Shown here one piece after another: positions 11,157-44,848 of a stretch of DNA of 64,000 nt (position 1 is its first letter; each line of letters begins with the position of its first letter). The stretch comes from Alphaproteobacteria bacterium. GTDB lineage: Bacteria; Pseudomonadota; Alphaproteobacteria; UBA2136; UBA6156. Where the stretch lies: assembly GCA_027485835.1 (NCBI GenBank), contig JAIXQG010000002.1:62001-126000 (forward strand), written 5' to 3'. The notes under the pieces were generated by a model. The model was given only the letters and a program-made list of their open reading frames with translations, ran no database searches and had not been told where the DNA came from. A program made the translations under genes and the position numbers.

Positions 11157-11627
11157 ATGAATTTAGAACCTATTCGCATTCAACCCTATAGCGATGAACC
11201 TCCTGAAATTCTTAAACAGATCAATCAAGCTTGCCTGCAACCCTTAGGACTTGAAAACCTTTTCTCCGTATCTGATTTAGACGACGTTCCAGCATTTTAC
11301 GCAGAAAAGGGCGGCATTTTCTTTACTATTAAGCACCATCAAGAAATCATAGGGTTTGGGGCGATAGACAATCTCTATGAAGGCATCATTGGCTCCCTCA
11401 CCCGTCTAAGAGTTTTGCCTGAACATCAAGGCAAGGGGATTGGATCTCAACTCATCGGAGAACTTATCTCCCAAGCTCGTTTAGCCGGCTATCAACGCCT
11501 TTTTCTTGACACATCCACCCTACAAAACACGGCAAGCCTTTATCAAAAATTTGGATTTACCGAATTTTTCCGCAGAACAGGCCCCGCTGGTGTAACAGAT
11601 GTGTTTTATGAAATGAAACTCTCTTAA
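11157..11627 (+). CDS. GNAT-family N-acetyltransferase
   Basis: The 156-residue protein has the GNAT acetyl-CoA motif A, RLRVLPEHQGKGIGSQLI (the Q-x-x-G-x-G pyrophosphate loop), and motif B around LDTSTLQNTASLYQKFGF. The substrate cannot be told from sequence. The gene is clearly more AT-rich than its neighbours and uses many A/T-ending codons. It stands alone between the pilus-like cluster and the tRNA-linked repeats, which suggests later acquisition. A CGGAG run lies 11 bases ahead of the ATG. Confidence 0.85.
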   Translation: MNLEPIRIQPYSDEPPEILKQINQACLQPLGLENLFSVSDLDDVPAFYAEKGGIFFTIKHHQEIIGFGAIDNLYEGIIGSLTRLRVLPEHQGKGIGSQLIGELISQARLAGYQRLFLDTSTLQNTASLYQKFGFTEFFRRTGPAGVTDVFYEMKLS

Positions 11628-11633
11628 CCGATT

Positions 11634-12126
11634 GCGATGAGCGATTACGCCTTGGATTTTTAGCCTGGCTTCGCCACGCCCTTTGAAAGGCGTTACCCTT
11701 CGGGTCCAACTGGCTTGTGGGATTAAAATCCTAAGCCCGAGAGATTTAAAAGCAGAGCCCCCGCTTGTGGGGATGTATCGTGGCTTATTTTAGGACTGGC
11801 GATGAGAGATTACGCCTTGGATTTTTAGATTGGCTTCGCCACGCTCTTTGAAAGGCGTTGCCCTTCGGGTCGAACTGGCTTGCGCGGTGCGAATTCTAAG
11901 CCCGAGAGATTTAAAAGCAGAGCCCCCGCTTGTGGGTTTTTATGGCGGCTAATTTGGGGCTGGGCGATGAGAGATTACGCCTTGGATTTTTAGCTTGGCT
12001 TCGCCACGCCCTTTGAAAGGCGTTGCCCTTCGGGTCGAACTGGCTTGCGCGGTGCGAATCCTAAGCCCGAGAGATTTAAAAGCAGAACCCCCGCTTGTGC
12101 GGGGGCTCTGCTTTTAAATCTGGTGG
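11634..12126. repeat. Three tandem ~165-bp structured units next to tRNA-Val
   Basis: Units begin at 11634, 11799 and 11964, with the tRNA-Val 3' end at 12127 starting a fourth period (165, 165 and 163 bases). Each begins on the plus strand with GCGATGAG(A/C)GATT, identical or nearly so to the 3' end of tRNA-Val. A ~100-base core follows with hairpins CCC-GAA-GGG and GGC-GAA-GCC and the inverted repeat ACGCC(C)TTT/AAAGGCGT. Each unit ends with one arm of the tRNA terminator (AAAAGCAGAGCCCCCGC). The first unit is the most diverged. Only a ~30-base stretch between units varies. No protein-coding capacity is credible. Confidence 0.85.
12073..12120 (-). terminator. Long hairpin terminator of the tRNA-Asp/tRNA-Val unit
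   Basis: A 48-base palindrome with a 22-base-pair stem (one mismatch) and TTGT loop begins right after the tRNA-Val CCA end. Its TTTT tract is on the minus strand. It is the expected terminator of the two minus-strand tRNAs. One arm of it recurs in each of the adjacent repeat units. Confidence 0.75.
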
Positions 12127-12195
12127 GCGATGAGAGATTCGAACTCCCGACCCGCTGCGTGTAAAGCAGCCGCTCTACCGCTGAGCTAATCGCCC
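12121..12195 (-). tRNA. tRNA-Val (anticodon TAC)
   Basis: The 75-base gene has acceptor GGGCGAT paired with ATCGCCC, D arm AGCTCAGCGGTAGAGC, anticodon stem GCTGC with loop TTTACAC, T arm GGGAG-TTCGAAT-CTCTC and an encoded CCA. The anticodon reads TAC, valine. Confidence 0.95.
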
Positions 12196-36683: not shown

Positions 36684-37796
36684 TTAGGCGGCCTTCTTCT
36701 TGCTGCTGGTGGTGCCAGTGCCGTTGTACACGGTCAGTTGGGCAGCCGGAGAGCTACGCTGAGCGGTCTTCGGAGCAGCCTTCTTTACAGCAGGCTTCTT
36801 AGCCGGAGCGGCCTTCTTCGGAGCAGCCTTCTTCACAGCAGGCTTAGCAGCTACCTTCTTCGGAGCGGCCTTCTTCACAGCAGGCTTAGCAGCTACCTTT
36901 TTAGGAGCAGCCTTTTTAACAGCCGGCTTTGCAGCTACCTTTTTAACAGCAGGCTTAGCTACTTTTTTAGCAGCAGGCTTAGCGGTTTTGGTTGCAGCCT
37001 TCTTAACAGCAGGCTTCTTTACTGCCGGTTTAGCGGCAGCCTTCTTTGCCGGTGCCTTTTTCGCAGCCGGTTTCTTCACAGCAGTTGCCATGTCTTTAGT
37101 TCCCGTTTCGTTGGAGGAGGAGGAGGTGCTCACCGCTGCAGCTTTTTTAGCTGAGCTGGCTGGCTTGCCCTTGAAGGCGAGGCCGATTTTTGCCGCGATA
37201 TCGCGAACAAGATTCATGATCTCGGTTTGCGACGGGTTGGCAAATCCATCCAGCACGGTGAGCCCGTTTTCCATGCTGGCGGCAAAGAGGACGCGGTTGC
37301 CGATTTCAGTTTCGGCGACCGGAATATCGAGTTGTTGAAGCTTTTGCTTCGTCTCAACAGTAATGTTGGCACGCTGGACCACACGGTTGAGAACAACCAT
37401 GGACTGACGCGATTCTGAGCTAATCGAATTGAAGGTTTCCTTCACGGCCCATACGTCTGCGGGAGACGGTTGGATCGGAACCAGCACGAGGTCGGCCGCG
37501 CGCACGCTCACCTTGATGTCCATCTCGGCATGCGGAGGGCAGTCGATGATGATGATGTCGTTGCTTTCGCGGGCCATGGAGAGGTCGCGGGTCAGGCGCC
37601 AGCCGGAGGTGGCGATGAGACCGATATCGTTGCTCTTGCGCTGGGCGTGCCAGTGGGTGGACGTGCCTTGCGGATCGGTATCGAACAGCATTGTGGAATA
37701 GCCTTGCTGTGCAAAAGCGACGGCCAGATGCGCAGACAATGTAGACTTACCGCATCCGCCTTTTTGATTTGCTACCGTGATGACGAAAGCCGACAT
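36684..37796 (-). CDS. ParA/MinD-like ATPase with a histone-H1-like tail
   Basis: The first ~205 residues are a ParA-family ATPase with deviant Walker A NQKGGCGKST, LFDTDPQGTSTHW, and Walker B-like IIIDCPPH. ParA ATPases cycle on nucleoid DNA to position chromosomes, plasmids or protein clusters. From about residue 210 the protein becomes a ~140-residue Lys/Ala/Pro tail built of PAVKKA and AAPKK units, like the C-terminal domain of histone H1. Three copies of a 14-residue unit (KVAAKPAVKKAAPK) are encoded by 42-base tandem repeats near 36816-36945. No ParB gene or parS-like site lies beside it, so it is probably not the chromosomal ParA. The tail would add strong non-specific DNA binding. Confidence 0.88.
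   Translation of the reverse strand: MSAFVITVANQKGGCGKSTLSAHLAVAFAQQGYSTMLFDTDPQGTSTHWHAQRKSNDIGLIATSGWRLTRDLSMARESNDIIIIDCPPHAEMDIKVSVRAADLVLVPIQPSPADVWAVKETFNSISSESRQSMVVLNRVVQRANITVETKQKLQQLDIPVAETEIGNRVLFAASMENGLTVLDGFANPSQTEIMNLVRDIAAKIGLAFKGKPASSAKKAAAVSTSSSSNETGTKDMATAVKKPAAKKAPAKKAAAKPAVKKPAVKKAATKTAKPAAKKVAKPAVKKVAAKPAVKKAAPKKVAAKPAVKKAAPKKVAAKPAVKKAAPKKAAPAKKPAVKKAAPKTAQRSSPAAQLTVYNGTGTTSSKKKAA
36816..36945 (-). repeat. 42-base tandem coding repeats in the ParA-like tail
   Basis: About three successive 42-base units, with several near-identical stretches, encode KVAAKPAVKKAAPK. Copy number is likely to vary by slippage between strains. Confidence 0.75.
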
Positions 37797-44823: not shown

Positions 44824-44848
44824 GGAATTCGGAATTCGGAATTCGGAA
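44824..44848. repeat. Short 7-base tandem repeat
   Basis: GGAATTC is repeated three times head to tail and then GGAA, in the gap between the secA start and the M23 peptidase stop. No function is apparent. Confidence 0.8.

Follow-up and report, generated by a model that had tools for sequence, protein, structure and literature searches.

The window, the 64,000-nt stretch of alphaproteobacterial DNA analysed here, carries on its minus strand a tRNA-Val(TAC) gene, a terminator-like hairpin and, downstream of both, an array of three non-identical 165-nt units (11631-12072). The units run in the direction of the tRNA and keep an exact 165-nt register with no indels. They are the only three copies of this type in the host genome (1.53 Mb, 2 contigs). 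The features of the locus are:

12121-12195, minus strand: tRNA-Val (TAC), parent of the tail copies (ARAGORN; Rfam RF00005, 70.2 bits)
12073-12120, minus strand: 22-bp perfect terminator-like hairpin directly after the tRNA (fold, repeat comparison)
11961-12072, minus strand: unit 1, closest to the tRNA, with 5′ part, T-arm piece, hairpin insert and exact tail copy (repeat and unit comparison)
11796-11960, minus strand: unit 2, with linker, retained right arm of the terminator hairpin, insert and tail copy (repeat and unit comparison)
11631-11795, minus strand: unit 3, with the most decayed tail (repeat and unit comparison)
11971-12044, minus strand: covarying core (T-arm piece plus insert) of unit 1 (98.8 bits with R1, the window-family model; covariation)
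11806-11879, minus strand: covarying core of unit 2 (R1, 95.6 bits)
11641-11714, minus strand: covarying core of unit 3 (R1, 91.8 bits; 12.6 bits with R2, a model built from E. coli units alone, and the best match of R2 in the window)
12026-12034, minus strand: CCC-GAA-GGG hairpin of unit 1, common to E. coli RtT; in the other units at 11861-11869 and 11696-11704
11961-11976, minus strand: exact tail copy, tRNA positions 58-73; further copies at 11796-11811 and 11631-11646
11907-11929, minus strand: retained terminator arm of unit 2; that of unit 3 at 11742-11764

In the direction of the tRNA, the order within a unit is: a 5′ part; the T-arm piece AGTTCGA; an insert running from CCCGAAGGGCAACGCC to GGCGT; and AATCTCTCATCGCC, which is the 3′ end of tRNA-Val itself from T-loop position 58. 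The tail copies correspond to tRNA positions 58-73 and have lost the CCA. The copy nearest the tRNA is exact, and alteration grows with distance from it. An earlier sequence-only reading had assigned each unit the last ~16 bases of tRNA-Val. The tail copies agree with this; the description is too short, as the T-arm piece (positions 52-58) is also kept in every unit. The repeat is thus a T arm plus tail interrupted in the T loop, rather than a 16-nt tail alone.

The remaining anatomy proposed in that reading is borne out. Its three units of 165-base period are recovered by repeat comparison in exact register and by TRF (2.8 copies, 91% matches), the CCC-GAA-GGG and GGC-GAA-GCC hairpins are present in all three units, and one arm of the terminator is retained in units 2 and 3. 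Identity between units likewise follows the proposed difference between a well-kept core and looser linkers: 64-67/69 for the T-loop insert with the T arm and 25-26/26 for the retained terminator arm, against 17-26/37 for the linker. With copies that differ in this way, duplication during assembly is excluded.

Sequence downstream of tRNA-Val folds at -72.3 kcal/mol (z = -6.6 against shuffled sequence), and the 22-bp terminator-like hairpin supplies most of this stability. The T run of the hairpin lies within its extended stem. A scan for terminators and promoters reported only shorter variants of this same hairpin, and no sigma-70-like promoter for the units. The position of the terminator-like hairpin ahead of the units, together with the lack of an obvious promoter, argues for low expression.

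The array is faced by a convergent ORF (11157-11627), identified by reading as acetyltransferase-like (GNAT-type), which ends 3 nt before the tail copy of the last unit. In two relatives (G001 and G002), a gene for a secretion/pilus-type ATPase directly follows the tRNA-Val locus, so the GNAT-type ORF looks like a lineage-specific insertion. Elsewhere in the window, a tandem-repeat tract at 36767-36998 has periods of 15, 24, 33 and 42 and may encode a Lys/Ala-rich protein tail, and GGAATTC is repeated 3.6 times at 44824-44848.

Echoes behind other tRNA genes

A copy of a tRNA's own 3′ end, in a unit downstream of that tRNA gene, is here called a tRNA echo. The count of echoes covered tRNA genes and their flanks in seven genomes: five belong to the family of the host, two to different families of the same order. 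A match required that the 16 nt preceding the CCA of a tRNA recur no more than 400 nt downstream of it with up to 2 mismatches, other tRNA genes being masked. By this rule, 38 of 237 tRNA genes, representing 13 isotypes, have an own-tail copy downstream; the expectation from the ends of other isotypes is ~0.3. The reversed query gave no match among the 237 tRNAs, and no copies of the tRNA's own 3′ end were found upstream of them. The echo starts at position 58 in 29 of the 38 and retains CCA in 28. Echo units span 45-380 nt, are non-coding and often have an insert flanked on either side by T-arm sequence. A mirror-image class, in which the tRNA's own 5′ end is copied upstream, is seen at 9 of the 237 tRNAs. 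The idea that the array belongs to a tRNA-anchored repeat family, to be checked by looking beside other tRNA genes, is upheld by these counts, as units stand behind many other tRNA genes in relatives.

Units of the type recognized by R1 occur behind: Val, Ala-GGC, Ala-TGC and Ser in G001; two Ala genes in G002; Ala-GGC in G005; Tyr and Ser in G007; and Ala-TGC in G008. In every one of these units, the tail is that of the adjoining tRNA. Across the family, all 17 matches of R1 at E values up to 0.1 lie behind tRNA genes. The named relatives are uncultured Alphaproteobacteria represented by metagenome assemblies (for example UBA6156 and D8_MAG_00060). A private satellite of this locus is ruled out by the occurrence of echoes in all seven genomes counted, within the family and beyond it. 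At the Val loci of other alphaproteobacterial families, no such copy was found except where a true duplicated tRNA supplied it. Within the family, the Val array has two units in G001, and no unit was found at the tRNA-Val locus of the congener G002, which indicates fast turnover.

Three sets of matches away from tRNA genes were set aside. The R1 match in G310, from the class-wide search, falls in probable coding sequence, lacks a tRNA in its neighbourhood and is taken as chance, as is a pattern match in Paraburkholderia that likewise lacks a nearby tRNA. Pattern matches in viral contigs lie away from tRNAs in apparent coding sequence, and viral carriers were rejected.

Structure, conservation and origin

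A check for covariance across copies had also been proposed, and it yielded a signal. In eleven units aligned by sequence, paralogues included, the covariation score for the whole structure is 0.271, compared with 0.156 (sd 0.021) for shuffles that do not keep relatedness. Sliding the pairing partners abolishes the score. The outer helix of the insert is 97% paired, with both sides changed in 4 of its 7 pairs. Across the helices, G-U pairs show no clear excess over A-C mismatches (9 versus 6), so RNA and DNA palindrome are not separable as the form that is kept.

Further indications come from echoes of tRNAs other than tRNA-Val. The echo behind tRNA-Leu(TAA) is 98% identical over 50 nt between G002 and G005, of different genera, and a 5′-end copy with a D-loop hairpin, ~78 nt upstream of tRNA-Leu(CAG), is 96% identical over 50 nt between G002 (L168) and G007 (L193). 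Coding DNA beside tRNAs is only 61-67% identical between genera. The covariation, together with the identity of these two Leu echoes, suggests constraint, and with it that selection keeps the structure in at least some loci. Recent transfer is the alternative explanation for the two conserved echoes.

Taken together, the array probably represents three tandem echoes of the RtT type, which would have arisen by duplication at tRNA-Val, act through read-through and processing, and be under selection at some loci. The observations on which this reading draws are: the unit anatomy; the own-tail rule; the start at position 58; the covariation; and the relationship of intermediate units to RtT. The founding event would be a tandem duplication with its breakpoint in the T loop. 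The duplicated segment would start at T-loop position 58 of tRNA-Val and take in the CCA and the terminator hairpin together with a hairpin-rich insert of the T loop; the tRNA would stay whole, and every added unit would finish with the tail of that tRNA. RNA polymerase that passes the tRNA terminator would then produce a trailer RNA, in which each unit could fold into a branched hairpin structure with a closing helix that resembles the T stem. Enzymes of tRNA processing may release the unit RNA, as is reported for RtT in E. coli. The proposal of a processed RNA made downstream of tRNA-Val fits this closest relative.

The strongest rival is a neutral by-product. Here, tRNA arms would promote slippage or template switching, leaving partial tandem copies and perfected quasi-palindromes, and the units would have no function. 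The covariation would then be apparent, reflecting palindromes repaired by template switching, and the lack of a clear G-U excess over A-C agrees with this. So do the decaying tails and diverged linkers, and the 5′-end copies upstream of 9/237 tRNAs are expected if a segment is duplicated in tandem from a breakpoint within a tRNA loop. By eye, the echo behind tRNA-Met (L106 in G000, L158 in G002) has an inverted anticodon-arm-like copy beside a direct one, a pairing that suggests template switching. Slippage nevertheless leaves unexplained the 96-98% conservation of two echoes between genera, the RtT-like anatomy common to E. coli and the sharp start at position 58 (29/38), and we consider it rather unlikely as the full account.

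A small mobile hairpin element, inserting in tRNA loops near GA^AT and spreading among tRNA copies in the manner of organelle double-hairpin elements or REP/RAYT palindromes, would account for the recurrence of the same hairpin types from one tRNA copy to another, in T, anticodon and D loops alike. It would also fit TGCGNNCCTTTGGNNCGACGC, found five times in 11 genomes and in four of these five cases within tRNA echoes. Against it, inserts outside tRNA flanks do not exceed chance in 464 kb, and general hairpin dispersal was rejected for want of such an excess. Mobilization of REP palindromes by RAYT was likewise rejected, as the Y1 transposase (PF01797, Y1_Tnp) is absent from all 11 family genomes. 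A resident reverse transcriptase was discarded as the maker because RVT_1 occurs in only one of the 11; the start at position 58 would fit a reverse transcriptase stop at modified A58. A mobile element is accordingly improbable.

Least probable of all, and hardly credible, are serial scars of integrative elements recombining in the T loop, the att-site duplication raised by the sequence-only reading. The identity block does run from T loop to CCA, and in one empty-site comparison the G008 sequence after the distal copy resembles the G009 sequence directly after the tRNA; the units, however, are short and non-coding (165 bp here, 45-380 nt across echoes), often flank the insert with T-arm sequence on either side and span 13 isotypes, and between the repeat copies no integrase-bearing element is seen, the 165-bp spacing being too short for a gene.

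Relationship to RtT and other systems

The sequence-only reading knew of no named family matching the array; the RtT element of E. coli (RF00391) has the same anatomy. In E. coli K-12, the last 19 nt of tyrV (positions 58-76) recur unaltered three times downstream of the gene, at a spacing of 178 bp. Ahead of each copy stand GGTTCGA, CCCGAAGGGC and a terminal hairpin that ends in GTAATCC. These repeats of the tyrTV locus are RtT/rttR. RtT repeats have been on record in E. coli for decades without a clear role emerging; those of tyrT encode the protamine-like peptide Tpr, and tpr is annotated inside rttR in K-12. The RtT RNA is reportedly released by tRNA processing enzymes (Bosl and Kersten 1991, as cited in PMC11623569).

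A search of the window with RF00391 gave no match even at E values up to 5 (Rfam gathering cut-off 45 bits), and because the window units fall below this threshold they are called RtT-like rather than RtT. Units of intermediate character occur in the same order. Among the alphaproteobacterial echoes compared with RF00391, the one behind tRNA-Gly in G013 (L227) aligns with it end to end at 35.2 bits, below the cut-off (E=0.002 in 29 kb); a second related unit (L236) reaches 27.2 bits, also below it. With R2, echoes take the first three places in 132 kb of loci. Window unit 3 is among these, with a weak score of 12.6 bits (E=0.59 in 132 kb and 0.004 in 0.9 kb), and in 400 kb of the host genome R2 matches the tRNA-Met echo alone. 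In the reverse direction, R1 ranks three E. coli tyrT units first, weakly. The CCCGAAGGG hairpin followed by a terminal hairpin closing on AAUC is present in all three window units and also in the tyr, lys and arg units of E. coli. Judged from sequence, the window units are remote, diversified relatives of RtT, a kind already known.

The lysT (L309) and argV (L310) operons of E. coli K-12 also contain own-tail copies behind their tRNA-Lys and tRNA-Arg genes, with RtT-like cores. The lysT-operon units score 46.7-60 bits with RF00391, above threshold, and the argV-operon units score below it. At lysQ, the tRNA gene is followed by its terminator, a unit, the tail and then a duplicate of the terminator, an arrangement that matches the window.

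What is new, and open to test, is that the units span so many isotypes and that they link E. coli with an order of Alphaproteobacteria. With this anatomy present behind at least 13 tRNA isotypes of a second bacterial class, what was a curiosity of one locus can be studied comparatively: the echo always carries the tail of the adjacent tRNA and mostly starts at the same T-loop position. Selection, transcription and mechanism can be tested at several independent loci, among them the Lys and Arg operons of laboratory E. coli. A wider claim is put forward tentatively, as less than an even prospect: that RtT-type echoes form a general class of structured RNA, selected behind many tRNA genes in Alpha- and Gammaproteobacteria and each made from the T arm and tail of its own tRNA, with a mirror-image class upstream. 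In that case a role in the processing or quality control of tRNA is conceivable, and they would not be an oddity of one E. coli operon.

Compared with known systems, the window units share with RtT: a tandem, non-coding arrangement behind a tRNA; the tail of that tRNA from position 58; a T-arm piece (GGTTCGA in RtT); and the CCCGAAGGG hairpin and a terminal hairpin, then GTAATC. The period of the three units, 165 bp, is close to the 170-180 bp range, whereas that of RtT is 178 bp. RtT tails are exact over 19 nt and include CCA; in the window the tail covers 58-73 without it, exact in unit 1, where CCA is replaced, and diverged in units 2 and 3. The order of hairpins also differs from that of RtT, and in the window, unlike RtT, a terminator hairpin stands ahead of the units. 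The lysT and argV spacer repeats resemble the window in their own-tail copies with AACGTTGC..GCAACGGCCCGAAGGGC cores, and lysQ resembles it in placing the unit after the terminator. In contrast to the window, the lysT and argV repeats lie mostly between tRNA genes of one operon and have a shorter insert. The double-hairpin elements of fungal mitochondria are paired, variable hairpins in loops of structured RNA genes; they are dispersed, whereas the inserts described here lie almost only in tRNA copies.
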